Part shown: positions 14,905 through 28,627 of the stretch, one piece after another | Numbering within the stretch: position 1 is the first letter of the stretch | How the letters are laid out: each line of letters opens with the position of its first letter | Assembly: GCA_937922945.1 (NCBI GenBank) | Contig: CAKZUP010000068.1 | Coordinates: 1-64,000 of the forward strand | Reading direction: 5' to 3' | From: an uncultured Granulosicoccaceae bacterium | Lineage (GTDB): Bacteria > Pseudomonadota > Gammaproteobacteria > Granulosicoccales > Granulosicoccaceae | Length of the DNA: 64,000 nucleotides | Notes under the pieces: generated by a model | Database searches by the model: none | Told to the model about the DNA's origin: nothing | The model's input: the letters and a program-made list of their open reading frames with translations, nothing else | Made by a program: the position numbers and the translations under genes

Positions 14905-16815
14905 CTAGTGTTCGGCAAACAACTCGACAAGTTGTCTTGTCATTACATCTGCCAGTTGCGACACATCGTGGATAGTCGTCGCGCGCTTGTAGTACTTACT
15001 TACATCGTGAGCAATGCCAATAGCGACTAGCTCAACCTCTTCCTGACGCTCAATAATATTCACCACATGGCGTAAATGCTTTTCAAGAAAGCGGCCCGGA
15101 TTGGTCGATAAAGTAGAATCATCGATTGGCGCACCATCTGAAATCATCATCAAAATTTTACGATGCTCGGTACGCTGCAGTAAACGACCATAAGCCCACT
15201 GCAAGGCCTCACCGTCAATGTTTTCTTTTAGTAAGCCTTTTCGCATCATTAATCCAAGGCTGCGTTTGGATTGACGGTATGGCATATCGGCAGACTTATA
15301 AACGATGTGGCGAAGATCATTCAAACGCCCAGGATTAGCAGGGTAACCCGCACCCACCCAGCGCTCACGCGATTTGCCGCCTTTCCATGCAACCGTGGTA
15401 AAGCCGAGCACTTCAACTTTCACGCCGCAGCGCTCGAGCGTCGAGGCCAGTATATCGGCCGATACCGCCGCAACCCGTATTGAACGTCCATGCATGGAAC
15501 CAGAATTGTCCAACAGTATCGTGACCACGGTATCGCGGAATTCGGTATCGCGTTCTTGTTTAAACGATAACGGCGCAAGCGGCTCAGTCAGCACACGCGT
15601 TAGCCGTGAACAATCAAGCTGGCCTTCTTCCTGATCAAAATCCCAGCTTCGTTGTTGTTGTGCAAGCAACACACGCTGTAATCGATTGGCAAATCGACCC
15701 ACTAATTTTTGCAAATCACCCAAATGCTGATCGAGTTGTTCGCGCAGTCGAATGAGCTCTTCTACAGGACAAATATCGGCGGCTCTCACCACTTCATCGT
15801 AGTCGGTTGTGAACACGTGGTAGTCGTTTTTCTCACGCGCGTTATTCAACTGTTCTTTCAGGCGGCGTTGCGCACCGGGATTTTCCGATTGATCATCTGA
15901 TATTTCATCGGGTTCAGCAGCGTCTCCGGTGTCTTCTGCTTCGCCTTGCTGTTCTTCACCACTGTCGCTTTGATTGGCGTCATCCATGCCCATATCGGTT
16001 TCATCCGAATCGCTTGCAGCATCCTGATCGGATTGTTCCTTCTCATCACCGTCATCGCCCATTTCATCATCGGCGTTGGGTGATTCGCTGTCGCCATGAT
16101 CGATTTTCAGGCTACGCAACAACTCACTGAAGGCCTTGCCGTAATCTGCCTGACGCTCCAAATCGAACGCGTTCGCATCGAACTGTGGGTCGGCGTTATC
16201 ACCTAGCCACTCGCGCCACTCTTTTAATGCGTGATCGGCAGCGTCAGGCAAAGGCCCACCCATTTTCTCCCGTATGTACAACGCTAAGGCGTGTTCTATC
16301 CCAACTCGTTGAGGAGCGTCATCGAGCACATTGGCGTGTTGGTGGTTTAACGCATCGTTCAATGCCCGATAACGCTGATCGAGCGCGGCATTCAGGTTAT
16401 TTGCAACACCATCGTATTGTTGGGCACCCAGTAATTCGATGCGCGTTTGTTCCGCAAGTGCGAAACAGCGTTGCGACGTGTCGGTATTGGGCTGTACCCG
16501 CTGGTGTAATTTGGCATCGTGAAATTGGCGATGCAAGGCCAGTGCATCGCTTCTGCCACGGGTTTCATCGCGTTGCTGGGCGCTGGCGTTAACCGGGAAT
16601 GCCGGTAAGGTTGCAGAGCGCACATCAACATCGTCGGCTTGTTCATCGAATTCGATGTTAATACTGGGATCACTGGCGATTGCGCGCGCGCATGCCGTGG
16701 TGGACTGTTTGAAATCAGTGGCACCACGTTCTGCCTGCCGGCCTTTCGTTGGCGTTAGGGCAGAAGACGAGTTGTCAGCCTTTTCAGCTGGCATCTGCCG
16801 GCGGAAGCTCTTCAC
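14905..16815 (-). CDS. cobT: CobT-like cobaltochelatase subunit (VWA domain)
   Basis: 636 residues. The N-terminal alpha-helical region is followed by a long Asp/Glu/Ser-rich linker (roughly residues 240-310) and a C-terminal von Willebrand A domain with the MIDAS motif DNSGSM starting near D436. This is the standard CobT layout. CobT pairs with the AAA ATPase CobS to power cobalt insertion by CobN in aerobic cobalamin synthesis. The N-terminus overlaps the end of cobS by about 30 bp; a second Met (MPAEK, 16794) would reduce that to 11 bp. No cobN or other cobalamin gene is in the window. Confidence 0.85.
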
Positions 16816-17770
16816 CGAAAACGCGTTGATACAGCTCAGCTATAAGCGAACGTTCTGCCGGGTCGCATTTGTTTAAAAAGACCAATTCGAACGAAAGCGC
16901 TGGTTCTTTAAAAAACGTGAGGTTTTGCGTCCAGGTTATAACCGTACGTGGACTCATTACCGTCGCCAGATCGCCATTTTTAAATGCGTTACGCGTCAGG
17001 TTTGCAAGCGCAACCATGTTCTTTACAGTCTGTTCACCTTCGGGGTTTTGCAAGTGCGGGGCTTTGGCAAGTACCACGCGCTCTTCCAGTTCAGCGGGAA
17101 GATAGTTAAGCACCGTTGTGATGGACCAACGATCCATTTGCGCCTGATTGATTTGCTGAGTACCGTGATACAAACCTGTGGTGTCGCCCAAACCAACCGT
17201 GTTTGCGGTGGCAAAAAATCGAAACGCCGGATGCGGCGTAAGTACGCGGCTCTGATCGAGCAGGGTTAGCTTGCCGGTAGACTCCAATACTCGCTGGATA
17301 ACGAACATGACATCCGGTCGCCCGGCATCATACTCATCGAATACAAGCGCTACGTTGCGTTGGTACGCCCACGGCAGGATACCGTCTTGAAATTGGGTAA
17401 CCTGTTTGCCTTCCTGCAAAACGATTGCGTCTTTTCCAATTAAATCGATACGACTGACATGACTATCAAGATTGATGCGTAGACAAGGCCAGTTCAAACG
17501 CGCAGCCACCTGCTCCACATGGGTAGACTTGCCCGTGCCATGGTAGCCACTGATCAAGACCCGCCAATCGTTGGCAAAACCCGACAGAATGGCAAGGGTT
17601 GTGCGTTTGTCAAAAATATAGGTGGGGTCGAGCTCCGGCACACGTTCGGTGGTTTCGGCATAGCCTGGAACCGTGATGTCAACATCCAGTCCAAAAGTGT
17701 CGCGCACAGACACCGTGGTGTCTGGCATGGGTCCTAATGCAGCTGCGTTATTCTGATTCGTATCGAGCAT
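16784..17770 (-). CDS. cobS: CobS-like cobaltochelatase AAA+ ATPase
   Basis: 328 residues. Walker [10 protein letters not shown] is at about 75-83 and Walker [10 protein letters not shown] further on. The stretches around [17 protein letters not shown] and [21 protein letters not shown] are very close to what is known for true CobS proteins rather than general MoxR ATPases. It forms the motor with CobT. It is the first gene of a minus-strand operon with cobT and a MATE exporter, and is divergent from the primase-phosphatase gene across a region of about 160 bp that contains a perfect palindrome. Confidence 0.9.
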
Positions 17771-17876: not shown

Positions 17877-17929
17877 TTTTGGGCACTTAGGGGGTGCCGT
17901 TTTTTCGCGGCCTCACTTACACTCCTGTT

Positions 17930-19201
17930 ATGGCAAGCGCACACGAAATCATTGGTGAAGAATGGCGAGAACGCGCCACAGAACTTGCCGATTGGGCCGC
18001 CCTGCGACTGCTCAACAGAAAAGATGTTTGGGGACAATACTCGGTACCCACACCAAGCGAACGGCGTAAAACGGGCCGAACGTACAAGGCCATGACGTTA
18101 CCAGCAAAAGCGCAGCGTGGTGGCGACAAAGTCACTCTCGACAAACTCACCAGGCACTTTGCCAGCCGCCGGATGCGCAAACCCCAGTTAATCGGGCTGC
18201 ATGCTAAATCGATTGACATCACCAGTCGCTGGTTTGGCGTCGATATCGACTGCCACGACCCGGAGGCAGCGGATGCCCCTGATTTGGCGCGGCGGAATCT
18301 TAACGCCTGCGTCACGTGGTATCAAAAACTGCAAACCATGGGATACGACCCCATGCTGTTCGACTCCAACGGCGCAGGCGGTTTTCATTTGTGGGTTCTG
18401 TTTGCAGAGCCTGCGCCTACCGAGTTGGTATTCGATTTTGCGCAATGGTTAGTCTCAGATTGGGAGACCCTGAATCTGGAGAAACTCCCCGAAACCTTCC
18501 CCAAGGCCGTTAAAGAAGACAGTCTCGGTTCCTGGTTCCGTTTGCCGGGTTTACACCACACGCGCGATCATTATTCCACCGTGTGGGCCGGTGAAGAAAC
18601 GCTGGATGAACCGTGGCTAACGGGTCATGCAGCCATCGACGTTATGTTGAACAATGTACCCGGGCCAGCACCTGCAATACCCGACGACAAACAGAAAGGC
18701 TCAAAGCAAAGCAAGAAACGCGATGGTGATAGCGCCCCTTTTAAAAAACCGGTGAAGATAAAAGACGCAGAACCCGGCAGCGCCCCACCGCTTCGCTCAA
18801 ATCGCCACTATGCACGCAAAAACCGTCCCACTGTATGTGTCGATCTGGACGGCGTTTTGGCCAATCGTGTTGAAGGTAGCGCTATCGGCCCACCGATTGA
18901 TGGTGCGGTTGAATTTACGCGTAAGCTGGCCAATCGGGCCAATATCGTTATCTACACCGCCCGCTTTTCAACTCGATCTGGCAAAGCTCGCAGCGCCAAA
19001 GCAATTGATGAATTGCATAGGCGCATTCAACGCTGGCTCGATTCTCACGGATTCAGCTATGACTCTATAAACACAGCTCAGGCAAAGCCAATAGCATCAG
19101 CCTACGTTGATGACAGAGCAATCAGTTGTCAGCCATTAAAAGACGGCTCAGCCGCTTTTGAGGATGCAATACAAGGTATCGATTCACTTTGCCATTTATA
19201 A
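17930..19201 (+). CDS. Archaeo-eukaryotic-type primase/polymerase domain fused to a HAD phosphatase
   Basis: 423 residues from ATG 17930; the frame is open to a GTG at 17894. The first roughly 250 residues have the primase-polymerase (AEP) pattern: D105-x-D107 in VDIDCHD for metal binding, FDSNGAGGFHLW with H153 as the SxH-like motif, and FPK followed by WFRLPG near 202. These resemble TOTE-type and LigD-type primases. A Lys/Ser-rich linker (about 255-300) leads to a C-terminal HAD domain: D305-L-D307 in VDLDGVL, YTARF near 342, and VDDRA at 393-397, similar to polynucleotide 3'-phosphatase-like HAD domains. The domain calls are by motif only. It heads the plus-strand cluster and is divergent from cobS. 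Confidence 0.75.
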   Translation: MASAHEIIGEEWRERATELADWAALRLLNRKDVWGQYSVPTPSERRKTGRTYKAMTLPAKAQRGGDKVTLDKLTRHFASRRMRKPQLIGLHAKSIDITSRWFGVDIDCHDPEAADAPDLARRNLNACVTWYQKLQTMGYDPMLFDSNGAGGFHLWVLFAEPAPTELVFDFAQWLVSDWETLNLEKLPETFPKAVKEDSLGSWFRLPGLHHTRDHYSTVWAGEETLDEPWLTGHAAIDVMLNNVPGPAPAIPDDKQKGSKQSKKRDGDSAPFKKPVKIKDAEPGSAPPLRSNRHYARKNRPTVCVDLDGVLANRVEGSAIGPPIDGAVEFTRKLANRANIVIYTARFSTRSGKARSAKAIDELHRRIQRWLDSHGFSYDSINTAQAKPIASAYVDDRAISCQPLKDGSAAFEDAIQGIDSLCHL

Positions 19202-19301
19202 ATTGCTATCTTTAAACATCACCACGCTAACCTGACAACGGCAGCACAGTTGATTTATAACGTCCATGCACAACCGGATGGGTTAACCAGACAGAGACAC
19301 T

Positions 19302-19931
19302 ATGCCACGCACACTTAGTTTCAGCCTCGACAACACAGTATTCGACGCCAGCATTATTAAAGTTGATCGCTCGCATCTCTATGGCTCGGTGAGTATTGAT
19401 ACAACCGACATGGAAGGCCTGCGCTGCACTGTAGCGACACTTGCAGCCGATGGAAAAACACTGATACCAAAAGGTGGTACCGCCCTGGGCTATGTTAACC
19501 CCCAGGGTGAATGGGTCAATCGCGATGAACTTCAACCGGTCAACCTTGATGGTGAACCCGTTGAAGAAGTTGAATCAAGCTTCGATGCCCCTATCCTTCT
19601 AGACAAAAAATGCGACCCAGAAACTTATCTGAACCACAGTGTACGACTGGTGTATCGACTTGAACCTGAAGCCGGATTTCCAGACTCGCTCATGGACACA
19701 CTTAGAGTGGGTAGCATATTCCAGTTTGGTTTTAGCTATCGAGGCGGTGTTGGTTATGACCCGGCATTCGTGCTTAGCGATGAAGATGATAACGTCTGGA
19801 TGATGATCACGCGAGAGAATCGAATTGAATCGGTAGGACTGACTCAAGCCGCGGTTTGCAAGGGTGAGAACCTTGACGAAGACACAGACGATGCTGATCC
19901 CGCTGACAGTATCGACTTCAGCATGCTATAG
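19302..19931 (+). CDS. Unrecognised acidic protein, first of a pair
   Basis: 209 residues, soluble, strongly acidic, with no signal peptide or membrane segment. I do not recognise a family. The N-terminal 55 residues (RTLSFSLDNTVFDASIIKVDR...) look beta-rich, and the C-terminal 20 residues are almost all Asp/Glu/Ser. A GxxFxFGFSYRGGVGYDPAF segment lies in the middle. It begins 100 bp after the primase gene and ends 10 bp before the next gene on the same strand, so it is part of the same gene run. Function unknown; the position suggests an accessory or DNA-end partner of the primase-ligase genes, which is inference only. Confidence 0.72.
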   Translation: MPRTLSFSLDNTVFDASIIKVDRSHLYGSVSIDTTDMEGLRCTVATLAADGKTLIPKGGTALGYVNPQGEWVNRDELQPVNLDGEPVEEVESSFDAPILLDKKCDPETYLNHSVRLVYRLEPEAGFPDSLMDTLRVGSIFQFGFSYRGGVGYDPAFVLSDEDDNVWMMITRENRIESVGLTQAAVCKGENLDEDTDDADPADSIDFSML

Positions 19932-19941
19932 GAAATAACTC

Positions 19942-20667
19942 ATGCCCAATATTAATCTGTCAGATAAGCGTAACAGAGACGCCGTGGTCAAAGCGGAAAG
20001 CGTCGGTGTTGATGAACCTGTGAGGTACCTTGGCCCCAAAGGCGGACAAACATATACCCGGCGCGTCTTGAAGTCCACAACCGCCCATGACTACGAAACG
20101 CTGGCAGAAAACTTCGGGGAACCAGAATCTATCTCACAAGCACTCATAGACGGCGACCCTGAAATAGATATCGAGCGCTTTGGACAGTTCTTATGGAACA
20201 CCAGTAAAGTATTTGTCAGCCCGGATGAAGAACTGGTTTTTCGTGTAGAACAAACTGAAGTTGTACGCGATACCACCGGCAAGCTCATTACCAAGCGCAA
20301 TCGTGAAAGTGAAGAGCCCAATGTGGACACAGACATACCCTTGCGCTGGACTGGCAAACTCATACCGAAGTCGGATGCGATACGTCGCTTCGTGTTCACC
20401 GCGAAACTGCAGGTGGTGCATATAAACGGATTAACTTACGACTTCTTGTACGCCATGGCAGAAGAGCTTGCCAAGGAGAATAGCTTGATGTTGCTCGGTG
20501 CAGGCGAAGACGGCAAGCAGCCCTTGATCTTCCGGCGCGGCTCCATCCCCTACCGGGCCTTCCTTGAAGGAAGAGTTGAAGGCGATGCCAACAATCAACG
20601 TTACACCTTGTTGCTGCACCTGAGCAACATGGAACTCAAACGGCGCGTAGAAAACCGGGGTACTTAG
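19942..20667 (+). CDS. Unrecognised protein, second of a pair
   Basis: 241 residues, soluble. AGGA lies 8 bases before the ATG, a good ribosome binding site. I do not recognise a family. It has many charged residues, an N-terminal GPKGGQTYTRR segment, a central alternating-charge region, and a C-terminal part (about 150-235) with mixed helices and strands ending in LLLHLSNMELKRR. It is 10 bp downstream of the 209-residue gene and surely co-transcribed with it. Function unknown. Confidence 0.72.
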   Translation: MPNINLSDKRNRDAVVKAESVGVDEPVRYLGPKGGQTYTRRVLKSTTAHDYETLAENFGEPESISQALIDGDPEIDIERFGQFLWNTSKVFVSPDEELVFRVEQTEVVRDTTGKLITKRNRESEEPNVDTDIPLRWTGKLIPKSDAIRRFVFTAKLQVVHINGLTYDFLYAMAEELAKENSLMLLGAGEDGKQPLIFRRGSIPYRAFLEGRVEGDANNQRYTLLLHLSNMELKRRVENRGT

Positions 20668-20777
20668 CTTATAAAACCACGCTCATGAAACTGTATGCGT
20701 GCAATACTTAGCAGCACCGGACCCAGATTCGACTAGCTGGCTTGGCAAGCGACTCAACGAACACTATTTGAACGGCC

Positions 20778-21206
20778 TTAGAACGGTCTGACCACCACTA
20801 GAATCACAATAAGAATGAGAGCAATAAATGGCAGCTCATTGGTTAGCTTCAGGGTGCGAACGGCTATCGTTGACGTGCCATTATCGATTTGCTTGCCAGT
20901 TTTAACGTAAAAGCCATGCAAACCAGTAATCGCCACGACTAAGGCAAGCTTTGCCCACATCCAACCACCTTGGAATACCGAGGGGTTTTGCATTACAAGC
21001 GTTATGCCGAGCACCCAAACCAGTATCATACTTGGCAGAAGAATGACACGGCGCAAGCGAGCAGCTGCGTCTTTCATGGTCTCGAATAGCTGATCGCCGG
21101 GTTGACTGGCGAGCTGGTGAATTTTATATCGCGGATAGACGAGTAAGCCCGCCATCCACGCAACCACAAAAATGATGTGTGCCGCTTTTATCCACAGATA
21201 CAACAT
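20778..21206 (-). CDS. hemJ: HemJ-type protoporphyrinogen oxidase
   Basis: 142 residues from ATG 21206, preceded by AGGG 7 bases upstream; an in-frame GTG lies at 21212. Four membrane helices. The pattern LWIKAAHIIFVVAWMAGLLVYPR carries the invariant His and Trp, and KLALVV the invariant Lys, of HemJ, the oxygen-using enzyme that converts protoporphyrinogen IX to protoporphyrin IX. It lies on the opposite strand between the unknown pair and the ligase gene, and so interrupts the run of nucleic-acid genes. A CopD-like copper protein is the less likely alternative. Confidence 0.8.
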   Translation of the reverse strand: MLYLWIKAAHIIFVVAWMAGLLVYPRYKIHQLASQPGDQLFETMKDAAARLRRVILLPSMILVWVLGITLVMQNPSVFQGGWMWAKLALVVAITGLHGFYVKTGKQIDNGTSTIAVRTLKLTNELPFIALILIVILVVVRPF

Positions 21207-21301
21207 AGTCACGCCCTATTCGTTTACAGACAGTATCAAAGCACAAATAGTACACTGTTAGTCAATCAATTGAGCAAACATCCCTGCCAACGGAGCGTCT
21301 C

Positions 21302-22765
21302 ATGGCATTGCTGTCGAAGCCACTAACTCAAAAACTCGGGGATTACAGCACCGGCAACGCGGCAGAATCGTTGGCAGACCCTGCCATGTTGCAAGCAACC
21401 CGCATGCGCAGGCGTCAGCTAAGCCGCATGACCAAAGCCTACGACCGACCAACAGCAAAAGCACGATTGCCAGAAGCAGAATATGCGATCAGCCGCAAGG
21501 TCGATGGCGAATTCACGTGCTTGTTCTATCAGGATGGCGAGGTTATCACCCTGAATCCGGGTGGGACCTTGCGGGCCGGAGCCGCGTTTCACAAAGAAGC
21601 TGCGCAATTGTTGACAAACGCAGGCGTTAAGAGCGCCATGCTTGGTGGCGAACTACACGTTAAGCGCGCAGATGTGCAACGCGAACGCGTGCACGATGTA
21701 GTCCGTATTGCACGTGCTCCAGACAGTCAGGCCGATATCGATTGTTTGTGTTTTGCCGTGTTCAACATTTACGATTTGGACGGCGACGATCTGTCCATGA
21801 ACTACGCAGACGCAATCGAAAAGGCGCAGCAATTGTTTGGCGATGGCAGCACTATATTCCCCGTTGAAACACACACCGGCGATCGCACCAAAGCGCTGGA
21901 GCTGTTCGATGTGTATGTTAACGAACAAGGTGCCGAAGGCATTGTATTGCGCAGCGACAATGCCGGGGTTTTCAAAATCAAACCCCGCCATTCCATCGAT
22001 TTAGCCGTACTGGGTTATTCAGAAGGTGTTGATGATCGCGCAGGTATGCTGCATAGCATGCTTATTGGCATTGCCAGAGACAATCACCATGCACATATTG
22101 TGGGGCGCGTTGGTGGTGGTTTTTCTGATGATGATCGCGTTGCGTTGCTTGAACAACTTCGTAAGCTTGATGTTGAAAGCGATTACGCCGAAGTCAATTC
22201 CGACCGCGTTGCCTATAGAATGATCAAACCTGGCCTGGTTGCAGAAATATCCTGTTTAGACGTTATCTCCACCACATCACATGGCAGCCCTATTGATCGT
22301 ATGGTGGTTGAATGGTCGCAGGATAACAATGCATGGAAAGGCATACGGCGCTTACCGTTGTGCAGTATTATTTCGCCACAGTTTGTTCAACTGCGTGAAG
22401 ATAAAACCTTCAGCGAAGCTGATACCGGTGCCGATCAGCTCAGCGACATTGTTAATATTCCAACCAGCGAACACGGTAAAATCGATGCATTGAATTTACC
22501 GGAAAGCACCATTCTTAAACGATCAGTCGCAACGAAAACATTGAAAGGCAACACAATGGTTCGTAAGCTATTACTGTGGCAAACCAATAAACAAACTGCT
22601 GCCAGAGACTACCCGGCCTACGTGCTGCACCTAACCGATTTCAGCCCGAACCGAAAAGAGCCTCTGAACCATGAAATTTGTGTCAGCGATTCTGAAGAAC
22701 AAATACATGAACTCTTCGCCGATTGGAAAAAACAGTACTATAAGCGCGGCTGGAAAGAGCAGTAA
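21302..22765 (+). CDS. ATP-dependent DNA ligase-like protein with extra C-terminal region
   Basis: 487 residues; GGAG lies 7 bases before ATG 21302. The nucleotidyltransferase motifs are in order: KVDGEF at 66-71 with Lys66 the predicted AMP-accepting residue, GGELH with Glu117, EGIVLR with Glu212, and FKIKP with K225 and K227. These motifs fit an ATP-dependent polynucleotide ligase of the LigD/LigB kind rather than the NAD-dependent LigA. An OB-like region follows, then about 130 further residues ending in a strongly basic/aromatic tail (DWKKQYYKRGWKEQ) that I do not recognise. The stop is directly followed by the ATG of the EEP nuclease gene. Confidence 0.82.
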   Translation: MALLSKPLTQKLGDYSTGNAAESLADPAMLQATRMRRRQLSRMTKAYDRPTAKARLPEAEYAISRKVDGEFTCLFYQDGEVITLNPGGTLRAGAAFHKEAAQLLTNAGVKSAMLGGELHVKRADVQRERVHDVVRIARAPDSQADIDCLCFAVFNIYDLDGDDLSMNYADAIEKAQQLFGDGSTIFPVETHTGDRTKALELFDVYVNEQGAEGIVLRSDNAGVFKIKPRHSIDLAVLGYSEGVDDRAGMLHSMLIGIARDNHHAHIVGRVGGGFSDDDRVALLEQLRKLDVESDYAEVNSDRVAYRMIKPGLVAEISCLDVISTTSHGSPIDRMVVEWSQDNNAWKGIRRLPLCSIISPQFVQLREDKTFSEADTGADQLSDIVNIPTSEHGKIDALNLPESTILKRSVATKTLKGNTMVRKLLLWQTNKQTAARDYPAYVLHLTDFSPNRKEPLNHEICVSDSEEQIHELFADWKKQYYKRGWKEQ

Positions 22766-23473
22766 ATGCGCTTGTTAAGCTGGAATATTTTGCAAGGTGG
22801 TGGCAAACGCGCTAACCAAATTGCCGATGCAATCATTGAAACCAAACCAGATATCGCGGTATTGCAAGAATTTCGAAATGGCAAAAGCGCTGCGGTTATT
22901 CTTGACGCCTGCCAATCTCTTGGGCTTAGTCATGTACATAAGGCCTCCGCTGATGCACGGAAAAACACCGTTATGTTGGCAAGCCGATTTCCGTTCAGTG
23001 TCTCATCCTGGGATACAGAACTCGATGCCGATCTTGCCTTCTGCGCAAGCGTGACCTGTTCAGTAGCAGGATACGAGCAACTCGACGTGTTCGCCGGCCA
23101 CCTACCGCAAAAGAAAAAACAGATACCGTATCTGGATGCGTTATACCAACTGAATACATCGGACTACAACAATGCCGTGATCATTGGCGATTTGAACTGC
23201 GGTATCCCGTTCGAAGATTCCGACACCAAGAGCTTTGACAACACACACATTTTTCAGGCATTACTCAACAAAGGCTGGCTAGATAGCTGGCGAAGCCGCA
23301 ACCCCACCGTAAAAGAGTACAGCTGGGTTAGCTCGCGCGACAATGGCTACCGCTACGATCATTGTCTTTGCAGACCTGACACCGACAACGTAATTCAGTC
23401 GATTCACTATTTGCACGACTTGCGCAACAGTGGATTATCAGATCACAGTGGCTTGGTTGTGGACTTTGCCTAA
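22766..23473 (+). CDS. Endonuclease/exonuclease/phosphatase (EEP) family protein
   Basis: 235 residues. EEP (DNase I/AP-endonuclease fold) motifs: N7 in LSWNIL, E35 in LQEF, GHLPQKK, IIGDLNCG, and D226-H227 in SDHSGL. The metal-binding and catalytic set is complete. No signal peptide, so it is cytosolic. Substrate unknown: an abasic-site or 3'-end trimming nuclease is plausible given its coupling to the ligase. Its ATG starts on the base after the ligase TAA, so translation is coupled. Confidence 0.8.
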   Translation: MRLLSWNILQGGGKRANQIADAIIETKPDIAVLQEFRNGKSAAVILDACQSLGLSHVHKASADARKNTVMLASRFPFSVSSWDTELDADLAFCASVTCSVAGYEQLDVFAGHLPQKKKQIPYLDALYQLNTSDYNNAVIIGDLNCGIPFEDSDTKSFDNTHIFQALLNKGWLDSWRSRNPTVKEYSWVSSRDNGYRYDHCLCRPDTDNVIQSIHYLHDLRNSGLSDHSGLVVDFA

Positions 23474-26666: not shown

Positions 26667-27530
26667 ATGCACATCACTCTAATCATAATCGTGACCTATA
26701 TTGCGTGCTGTTTGCGAGTTGGTGCAGCCCCTTGGAAGTTTTTTCAGCTCAATGCGCGCTATTTTTCCAAAGAGGAAGGCATCTTTTCCAAGCTCTCCAT
26801 CGACACACTCATACCGGACCACTGGCGACTGCATCAATCACCTGACGATCCACTACTGGCGCCCGAGAAATACCCGGTTTTTCTAAAACCTGAATGGGGT
26901 CAGAACGCCCACGGAATACAACGCGCCGACAACTTTGAACAATTGCAAGCGATACGGGCAGACCTGAAAAGCCGCGATGGCGATCAGCGTTATATTCTGC
27001 AAGAGGGCGCGCCCGGTAAACGTGAATTCGAAATATTCAGTATCGACGTGAGCAAGGCAGATGGCGCGCACGACGTAGTCACAGTAACCGAAGCGGTTAA
27101 CAAGACAGAAGCTTATCCGATTAACAGCAAGTACAATAACAACACACGTTACGTCGATATATCTTCTCAATTCGAAAGTGAAGAGCTTAAGCAGCTCAGC
27201 GAATACCTTGACCAGGTTGGCCAGTTTGCCATTTCCCGAATGAGCGTGAGGGCCGATTCTATTGAAGCGCTATTGGCAGGTGAGTTTCACGTAATAGAAG
27301 TGAATCTGTTTTTACCCATGCCAATAAACTTGCTCGACAGCAGCTACAGCTGGACGCTGCGACTAAAATTTATCAAAAGATCAATGATGAGTCTCGCATT
27401 GGCGACAAAGGCCATCAAGCCAGTTGACCGACCACCCGCTATCTTCACTCGCATGATGCTTTACGGCAGAAAAACGAGCGCCCCAATACGCAGCATAAAC
27501 AAGCTTGCGGCAAGACGAACCTTATTGTGA
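26667..27530 (+). CDS. ATP-grasp domain protein (ligase-like), first of a pair
   Basis: 287 residues. VFLKPEWGQNAHGI is an ATP-grasp lysine/glycine loop, followed by YILQEG and near the C-terminus FHVIEVNLF...PMPINLLD, the metal-binding ExN motif of D-Ala-D-Ala-ligase-like enzymes. The N-terminus is hydrophobic and short, and the usual N-terminal substrate domain is small. Predicted to join a carboxylate to an amine with ATP; substrates unknown. It is followed by a second ATP-grasp gene and an MFS gene, all plus strand. Confidence 0.72.
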   Translation: MHITLIIIVTYIACCLRVGAAPWKFFQLNARYFSKEEGIFSKLSIDTLIPDHWRLHQSPDDPLLAPEKYPVFLKPEWGQNAHGIQRADNFEQLQAIRADLKSRDGDQRYILQEGAPGKREFEIFSIDVSKADGAHDVVTVTEAVNKTEAYPINSKYNNNTRYVDISSQFESEELKQLSEYLDQVGQFAISRMSVRADSIEALLAGEFHVIEVNLFLPMPINLLDSSYSWTLRLKFIKRSMMSLALATKAIKPVDRPPAIFTRMMLYGRKTSAPIRSINKLAARRTLL

Positions 27531-27585
27531 TTGTTCAAGCTTATAATATATAAAGCTGATGACTTACACCGTTATTGATTCTGCC

Positions 27586-27674
27586 CATGGTTATTTAGTC
27601 ACTGATCATCTAGCCGCCAGTTATTAGTCACCAGTTATTAGTCACCAGTTATTTTGCCACTAGTTATTTAGCCA
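27586..27674. repeat. Four to five tandem 14-15-bp repeats
   Basis: Units CCAGTTATTAGTCA at 27617-27630 and 27631-27644, then longer variants at 27645-27659 and 27660-27674, with a diverged copy near 27586-27601. The array fills the gap between the two ATP-grasp genes. Confidence 0.9.
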
Positions 27675-27718
27675 ATTTGTCGAAGACGTTATGAGGCCGT
27701 TGTTGTGAGAATGAAGCG

Positions 27719-28627
27719 TTGAAGAAAATCAAGCAACTGGTCTATCAGTGGATCAGCAAACGCTACATGGATGGTTGTAGTAACTATAACTCCCTTGAAG
27801 TTCGCAGAAGAAGTCGTTCGAAAGAACAAGCACGCGAGATGTTTGCCAAGCACAACGTTCCGCATGCGCGTGGGAAAATTTTTATTAATCCGTTCACCGC
27901 AAAACGCTTTGCCGAAGAGCACGGATACCCGTTAGTTATAAAACCGAATGTGAGCGGATTTTCAAGAGGAAGCCACTTCCCCATTAACAACGACAAAGAA
28001 CTCTGGAAGGCCGCGTTGATGGTTAAAGTTTGGTGGCCCAGCAGTGTGGTTGAACAGTATTTGTTGGGTGCTAACTACCGAGTGCTCGCAACCCAAGACG
28101 AGATTGTCTCCGTTATTCGACGATACCCCCCGTTCATAGACGGCGATGGCGAAAATACCATTGGGGACCTGATCGATCAGGAAAATGCCGTTCGCCAGGA
28201 AATGCAGCTACACCCCACTATTTATCCGATAAAGCAATCCCCGGCCATTGCTCGCTATCTGGCGAAGCAATCGTTATCGTTTTCCAGCGTGCCTGGAAAA
28301 AACGAGAGAGTGTACTTGTTTAATCGTGTGGCACTGGCACCTGGCGGAATCGTCGAAACCATCGACCAAAACAACATACCTGATGTTAACAAGGCACTAT
28401 TCAAATCGATTGTCAAGCAATTCGATGCTAGCCTGTTCGGTATCGATGTGATTTTCGAGCACGGTATCGAGCAAGCATACACTGACCAAAAATGCATTTT
28501 CCTTGAAGTGAATTCACGGCCATACACCCGAATGCATGAAAAACCACGACTCGGCGGTGTTGACGATCTAGCACCGTTTTACGAAAAAATGGATAGTCTG
28601 GCAGTCTCCGACACCAATACGTTCTAG
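27719..28627 (+). CDS. Cyanophycin-synthetase-like ATP-grasp protein, second of a pair
   Basis: 302 residues. VIKPNVSGFSRG is the ATP-binding loop, VVEQYLLGANYRVL and GDGENTIGDLID are the signatures shared with the ATP-grasp part of cyanophycin synthetase and GshAB, and FLEVNSRPYTRMHEKP gives the metal-binding ExN. It lacks the Mur-ligase-like half of cyanophycin synthetase. The start is TTG 27719, the only start-like codon before a stop at 27692. It likely makes an amide bond with amino-acid substrates. It follows the tandem repeat array and precedes the MFS gene by 17 bp. Confidence 0.75.
   Translation: MKKIKQLVYQWISKRYMDGCSNYNSLEVRRRSRSKEQAREMFAKHNVPHARGKIFINPFTAKRFAEEHGYPLVIKPNVSGFSRGSHFPINNDKELWKAALMVKVWWPSSVVEQYLLGANYRVLATQDEIVSVIRRYPPFIDGDGENTIGDLIDQENAVRQEMQLHPTIYPIKQSPAIARYLAKQSLSFSSVPGKNERVYLFNRVALAPGGIVETIDQNNIPDVNKALFKSIVKQFDASLFGIDVIFEHGIEQAYTDQKCIFLEVNSRPYTRMHEKPRLGGVDDLAPFYEKMDSLAVSDTNTF

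Follow-up and report, generated by a model that had tools for sequence, protein, structure and literature searches.

The 64-kb stretch at the start of contig CAKZUP010000068.1, from an uncultured Granulosicoccaceae bacterium, is referred to here as the window and its genome as G000; other genomes and loci carry labels beginning with G and L. Between positions 17930 and 23473, the forward strand encodes a TOTE-type AEP primase-polymerase with a C-terminal HAD phosphatase-like domain (primase-HAD), two small proteins that we call U1 and U2, an ATP-dependent DNA ligase and an EEP nuclease. An earlier note on this DNA had claimed these five genes in this order, with HemJ interrupting the run on the opposite strand, and the open reading frames (ORFs) and profile matches agree with it (Table 1). 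We consider it fairly probable that the locus encodes an end-joining repair module outside the known Ku and LigD families, with a ligase of its own and, at its heart, a cryptic Ku-like clamp that is probably a heterodimer. The Ku-like fold is predicted from structural models, whereas subunit pairing, DNA binding and end joining are inferred.

Table 1. Genes of the candidate module and their neighbours in the window
Feature	Position	Strand	Basis
AEP (TOTE-type) primase-polymerase with C-terminal HAD phosphatase-like domain	17930..19201	+	ORF, profiles, conserved motifs
U1, first Ku-like candidate subunit, 209 aa, acidic C-terminal tip	19302..19931	+	ORF, alignment, predicted structure
U2, second Ku-like candidate subunit, 241 aa	19942..20667	+	ORF, alignment, predicted structure
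ATP-dependent DNA ligase with conserved C-terminal region of ~90 aa matching no named domain	21302..22765	+	ORF, profiles, motifs
EEP nuclease, ExoIII/AP-endonuclease type, start abutting ligase stop (gap 0 bp)	22766..23473	+	ORF, profiles, motifs
HemJ (UPF0093), intruder, outside module	20778..21212	-	Profile match, comparison of neighbourhoods
CobT and CobS, chromosomal neighbours at insertion site, outside module	14905..17770	-	Profiles, comparison with relatives

Predicted structures of U1 and U2

Searches of Pfam, NCBIfam, PADLOC and PHROGs gave neither U1 nor U2 any match with an E-value under 0.02, the best being that of U1 to phrog_24393, a family of unknown function (0.026). AlphaFold2 models, each built from an alignment of 25 members, reach a predicted local distance difference test score (pLDDT) of 73.9 and a predicted template modelling score (pTM) of 0.60 for U1, and 64.2 and 0.55 for U2. 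Foldseek searches of the PDB (E up to 10) returned 446 matches for U1 and 691 for U2, with 50 listed for each under the title of the PDB entry rather than of the chain. Among the 50 matches listed for U1, all are Ku or belong to end-joining or DNA-PK complexes that include Ku, six of them at E <= 0.001, and B. subtilis Ku bound to DNA ranks first (9vnq, E 1.9e-4, probability 1.00). The 50 listed for U2 are likewise all Ku or Ku-containing complexes, with 39 at E <= 0.001 and 8v53 as the best (E 1.5e-5). Searched against a viral structure library, U1 finds phage Ku at ranks 1 and 2 (5.9e-5, probability 1.00; 1.6e-2, probability 0.99), while the third match has a probability of 0.38. Chance would hardly account for the models of two adjacent, mutually dissimilar proteins both pointing to Ku. 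The earlier suggestion that this pair takes the place of an end-binding protein gains support because both models match Ku best, and draws none from sequence, where no method shows Ku.

A profile comparison of U1 with U2 scores 20.1 (shuffled mean 14.9, sd 2.3, maximum 22.2), which makes a sequence relationship between them suggestive at best. The C-termini of the two proteins have features of their own. The acidic stretch of U1 ends in DF.M(L/I/M/F) in 27 of 32 sequences, a tip reminiscent of the one through which SSB recruits other proteins. In G030 and G033, the U2 homologue is extended by a linker rich in Lys and Ala and by a C-terminal SAM domain (E 1.7e-13 and 1.3e-13), and homologues with this linker and domain lie at L112:9614-10858 and L113:8046-9371 (minus strand); the homologue of L050 has a basic tail rich in Pro, Ala and Lys. 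Bacterial Ku likewise has a variable C-terminal extension, according to one report (PMC9638933).

Associated enzymes

The primase-HAD frame is open from 17894 to 19201 on the plus strand, and most homologues start with MA(S/T)xHEIIGEEW, corresponding to the ATG at 17930. The AEP half scores 26.9 bits against AEP-TOTE (PF22548, E 4.5e-6), 0.1 bit under the cut-off of 27; three of four scanned homologues exceed this cut-off (36.5, 37.5 and 33.3) and one falls under it (24.4). For the HAD half, Pfam gives a weak match below cut-off (NT5C, 13 bits), but phrog_1238 is matched at 8.6e-15 and, in a profile search, PDB 1xpj at 3.4e-8. Across ten aligned sequences, from which L016 (in-frame stop) and L017 (truncated) were excluded, the AEP residues D117-x-D119, H165 and R216 and the HAD residues D317-x-D319, K398 and D406-D407 are invariant. 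The AEP DxD and (S/G)xH motifs fall within the AEP profile match, while no residue was identified as the acid normally found in motif III. The HAD DxDG, Thr, Lys and DD motifs are present, with Ser replacing Thr in one of the ten (L022). A literature search on TOTE-type AEP found no paper.

The EEP enzyme matches Exo_endo_phos (3e-12), scores under the ExoIII equivalog cut-off and retains invariant N7, E35, D142-x-N144 and D226-H227 in nine sequences (partial L016 excluded). The ligase carries nucleotidyltransferase motifs and an OB domain, as sought in a LigD-type ligase, with K66-x-D68-G69, E212-G213 and K225-x-K227 invariant in 23 sequences; against the model for ligases of non-homologous end joining (NHEJ; TIGR02779) it scores 54 bits, far under the cut-off of 227.75. 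A WGR domain suspected by eye in its C-terminus was unsupported by profile searches. Judged on these alignments, the cross-phylum conservation of the catalytic motifs is far beyond chance. The earlier note had named, as one point that would speak against the locus, a failure of the primase and ligase motifs to fold as such domains; examined by sequence profiles only, both are recognised.

The ligase profiles also bear on whether the substrate might be RNA instead of DNA. The window ligase matches both DNA_ligase_A_C (5.4e-10) and RNA_ligase (1.1e-7). When E-values up to 10 are allowed, RNA_ligase is matched by 10 of 23 members; in addition, the HAD domain of Swiss-Army-Knife RNA repair proteins has matches, below cut-off, in two of four primase-HAD homologues. 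At the same E limit, however, DNA_ligase_A_C is matched by 23 of 23 ligases and DNA_ligase_A_M by 20, and all 35 matches of the ligase profile to PDB sequences (E up to 0.01) are named DNA ligases, which makes RNA repair very improbable.

Distribution, linkage and insertion site

Short peptide patterns of U2, scanned across one genome per species (84,980 species) and therefore yielding a lower bound, located at least 24 loci. These comprise six in Granulosicoccaceae, three in Hellea, one in Caulobacterales, five in Polyangia, Myxococcales, Deltaproteobacteria or unassigned Proteobacteria, three in Pirellulaceae, three in Micrococcales, and one each in Planctomycetales, Anaerolineae and Verrucomicrobiia. 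In all 24, U2 is preceded by U1 in the same orientation, and the ligase follows U2 in 22; of the two exceptions, the L030 sequence ends soon after U2, and the L012 contig ends before the ligase, which that genome has on another contig with HemJ and EEP. Primase-HAD and EEP are present on the same stretch at 11 and 9 of the 24 loci, respectively, contig ends included. Spacing is tight: with the window included, the U1-U2 gap is at most 30 bp in 20 of 25 cases (largest 1035 bp), and the U2-ligase gap is at most 32 bp in 16 of 23, with 11 of these 16 overlapping. Over 23 sequences, the pairwise distances within U1, within U2 and within the ligase show correlations of 0.90-0.92 with one another, as expected if the three were inherited together; the correlations were computed for these three linked genes alone. 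U1, U2 and the ligase, hereafter the trio, form the core, which occurs in several phyla and in one case on a mobile element.

That element is a contig from a viral collection (L034:1-8980), on which the trio lies between ParA and a RepB-type primase, together with a tyrosine integrase and a replication initiator. Such company, and the movement of the cassette as a unit, would fit a system that helps mobile elements to replicate or persist and that chromosomes have partly domesticated. U1-U2 would then protect the ends of an incoming linear genome, a role proposed for phage Mu Gam, and the ligase would circularise that genome. We regard this as improbable. Further scans of the viral collection gave nothing or L034 again, protein searches of phage and plasmid records and a near-identity search of plasmids found no match, and most copies found are on genome contigs where no such genes were recognised in the vicinity, few neighbours having been profile-scanned.

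The system is rare. Among 398 Pseudomonadota genomes it occurs in one, the window's own, and among 294 Planctomycetota genomes the trio occurs in seven, the three gene matches spanning at most 3.7 kb in each. Primase-HAD matched over both domains is found in three Planctomycetota genomes, all among these seven, two of them with primase-HAD on a contig other than that of the trio (Fisher 8e-6 against U2, with relatedness ignored and the criterion chosen after seeing the list). Any primase-HAD match occurs in four of the seven trio genomes and in 7 of the 287 others; weaker matches to the AEP region only were found in eight further Planctomycetota genomes, one of them (G218) with the trio. Of the 18 distant trio genomes, nine have a detected primase-HAD, which in G062 is split into two fragments on separate contigs. 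At L119 (G245), trio and primase-HAD are divergent neighbours; the frames of U2 and primase-HAD appear broken there, whether as pseudogenes or through errors of assembly.

The earlier note held linkage across HemJ to be uncertain and named rare co-occurrence as a point that would speak against the locus. In 57 related genomes, own included, in which U1, primase-HAD and ligase were each searched separately, the three are present in an identical set of nine, so that they do co-occur in the genomes searched; a further weak ligase match (E 7.7e-5) in G054 lies ~1.5 kb from the canonical Ku of that genome. Linkage is also borne out by empty sites and relocated whole cassettes. When the CobST region was compared in six relatives without the trio, four (L106, L109, L110, L111) had EF-G 0.3-1.6 kb from CobS, followed by the same flanking genes, and this CobS-EF-G interval is the place of the cassette in the window; in the other two (L107, L108) EF-G lies ~10 kb from CobS. 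The whole set of primase-HAD, U1, U2, ligase and EEP occurs in a different neighbourhood and without HemJ in two other genera (L112, L113). The U2-ligase interval itself varies: it holds HemJ in the window (UPF0093 match, 2e-39) and in L010, 6.9 kb including HemJ in L011, a 173-aa gene named ACT-like by eye in L013 and L014, and 55 bp in L015. HemJ is therefore an intruder in a set of five genes that move together, and gain or loss concerns the cassette as a whole.

CobS and CobT were rejected as members of the system, given that 35 of the 57 related genomes have CobT and that 26 of these 35 lack the trio. In G030 and G033 the sole CobT match lies on a different contig from the trio, while G032, of another genus, has a primase-HAD fragment on its CobT contig, and the same insertion site may therefore be used there. 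G000 has three CobT matches, one of which is the divergent neighbour of the cassette. Two ATP-grasp-type genes (26667-28627 of the window) adjoin EF-G also in relatives without the cassette.

Patchy presence (9/57 related genomes) and cassette movement are also what an anti-phage defence system could display, and the earlier note had raised a defence role. PADLOC, however, has no match to U1, U2, ligase or EEP, and primase-HAD gives it only weak DRT and PrimPol matches (best E 0.0053). No defence gene was recognised among the flanking genes, which, judged mostly by eye, look like ordinary chromosomal genes. We consider defence highly unlikely and did not retain that part of the claim. A linkage to tellurium resistance (Ter) was also considered and set aside, a literature search having given no paper on it.

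Proposed mechanism and comparison with known systems

In the proposed end-joining module, U1 would form one half and U2 the other half of a ring of the Ku type, which would be loaded onto double-strand DNA ends. The ligase encoded beside the pair would be recruited by U1-U2, perhaps via the acidic tip conserved in U1, and would then close the break. Family membership and conserved motifs suggest roles for the other enzymes in loci that have them: the AEP domain may fill gaps, the HAD domain may clear ends of 3' phosphates or other blocked phosphates, and damaged 3' ends or abasic sites may be trimmed by the EEP enzyme.

The same enzymes could serve Ku-independent excision or single-strand gap repair, the main rival. 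EEP, which resembles ExoIII and AP endonucleases, would incise abasic sites or clean 3' ends, AEP would fill short gaps, HAD would clean phosphates and the ligase would seal nicks, with U1-U2 as a scaffold. A parallel is mycobacterial LigC and Prim-PolC, likewise an operon of an ATP-dependent ligase and an AEP enzyme, which in the relevant part of one report act in base excision repair with its enzymes and are described with no Ku-like pair (PMC5663958). This alternative is unlikely, if the least unlikely of those considered, as many loci hold the conserved core without EEP and primase-HAD, and the Ku-like fold predicted for both U1 and U2 points to double-strand ends.

Several results weigh against end joining by a Ku-like pair. 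In a Pfam scan, the Ku profile (PF02735) is matched by none of the 25 U1 or 25 U2 members, and U1 and U2 profile searches of PDB sequences reveal no Ku. Profile-profile comparison (hhalign) with 30 of 36 Ku proteins, six with long fused frames being excluded, gives 12.8 for U1 (shuffled mean 14.0, reversed 17.6) and 16.0 for U2 (shuffled mean 14.7, maximum 20.4; reversed 14.9); these Ku scores are no better than those of shuffled controls, and the attempt to prove Ku homology from sequence failed. Model confidence is moderate, with long low-confidence stretches in both proteins, and the matches to Ku have TM-scores (template modelling scores) by query length of 0.29-0.45 and high root-mean-square deviation. 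For the Ku core fold (beta-barrel with DNA-encircling bridge), both models thus have Ku as their best match, though at TM <0.5. The strong acidity of U1 (isoelectric point 4.1 in the window copy, 4.4 minus the last 30 residues) is odd for half of a DNA-binding ring. In view of the failed sequence comparisons, moderate models, TM-scores and acidity, U1 and U2 are therefore called Ku-like and kept out of PF02735. Primase-HAD went undetected in 9 of the 18 distant trio genomes (all three Micrococcales, five myxobacterial or unassigned proteobacterial genomes and G064), so the trio can work without it. Depletion of canonical Ku (Pfam Ku family) in trio genomes is not significant, at 0/16 against 42/335 pooled (p 0.23).

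Canonical Ku is absent from the nine related genomes and the seven Planctomycetota that bear the trio, which agrees with the earlier label 'Ku-less' for the relatives, provided that the label is restricted to the Pfam Ku family. The label does not extend to the distant trio genomes, of which 2 of 18 have canonical Ku (G061 is counted in both the distant and the Planctomycetota sets), so Ku and trio are not mutually exclusive. Simple replacement of canonical Ku by the trio was rejected, there being no significant exclusion. As a separate observation in Planctomycetota, G223:C223 and G252:C2 each have two canonical Ku matches side by side.

No description of the trio was found in the literature searched, which left preprints and most subscription papers outside its scope, so that absence from print is not established. 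Phage Mu Gam, described in one report as a Ku relative binding DNA ends (PMC1378119), differs in being a homodimer, and its likeness to U1-U2 is that of the description alone. Two reports place two ku genes side by side in some bacterial operons and suggest or propose heterodimers (PMC1378119, PMC5124664). These operons share with the trio an adjacent pair of Ku-type genes but encode recognisable Ku, unlike U1 and U2. A large survey of bacterial end joining relied on Ku and LigD sequence profiles (PMC7719229).

Such surveys would score most trio genomes as lacking end joining, and there is a real chance that the trio is a separate Ku lineage. The models suggest a rare, movable gene set that is an overlooked second kind of bacterial break-repair machine. 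If true, a cryptic Ku-like pair with a dedicated ligase would widen the known range of break repair, would offer an independent view of how heterodimeric Ku can arise and could give a compact tool for joining DNA ends.

The candidate module resembles bacterial NHEJ (Ku of PF02735 with LigD) in the Ku-like fold predicted by structure search, in its patchy distribution and in bringing together the predicted activities of an ATP-dependent ligase, an AEP polymerase and phosphate-processing enzymes. Unlike bacterial NHEJ, it has two dissimilar adjacent Ku-like candidates missed by Ku profiles. Unlike LigD, it places ligase, polymerase and processing on separate proteins, with HAD and EEP in place of the LigD phosphoesterase domain and a TOTE-type rather than LigD-type AEP. 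The eukaryotic system of Ku70/Ku80, DNA ligase IV, Pol X polymerases and PNKP likewise has two different subunits, a separate ligase and polymerase, and a HAD phosphatase for end cleaning, although U1 and U2 are too short for a von Willebrand domain and have no detected sequence similarity to Ku70/80. We give even odds to the trio being a second bacterial Ku lineage, with an obligate U1-U2 heterodimer and its own ligase, invisible to Ku profiles, spread over several phyla and borne by a mobile element. Such a lineage would be an independent instance of the arrangement known from eukaryotes, in which Ku is a heterodimer and the ligase, polymerase and phosphatase are separate proteins.

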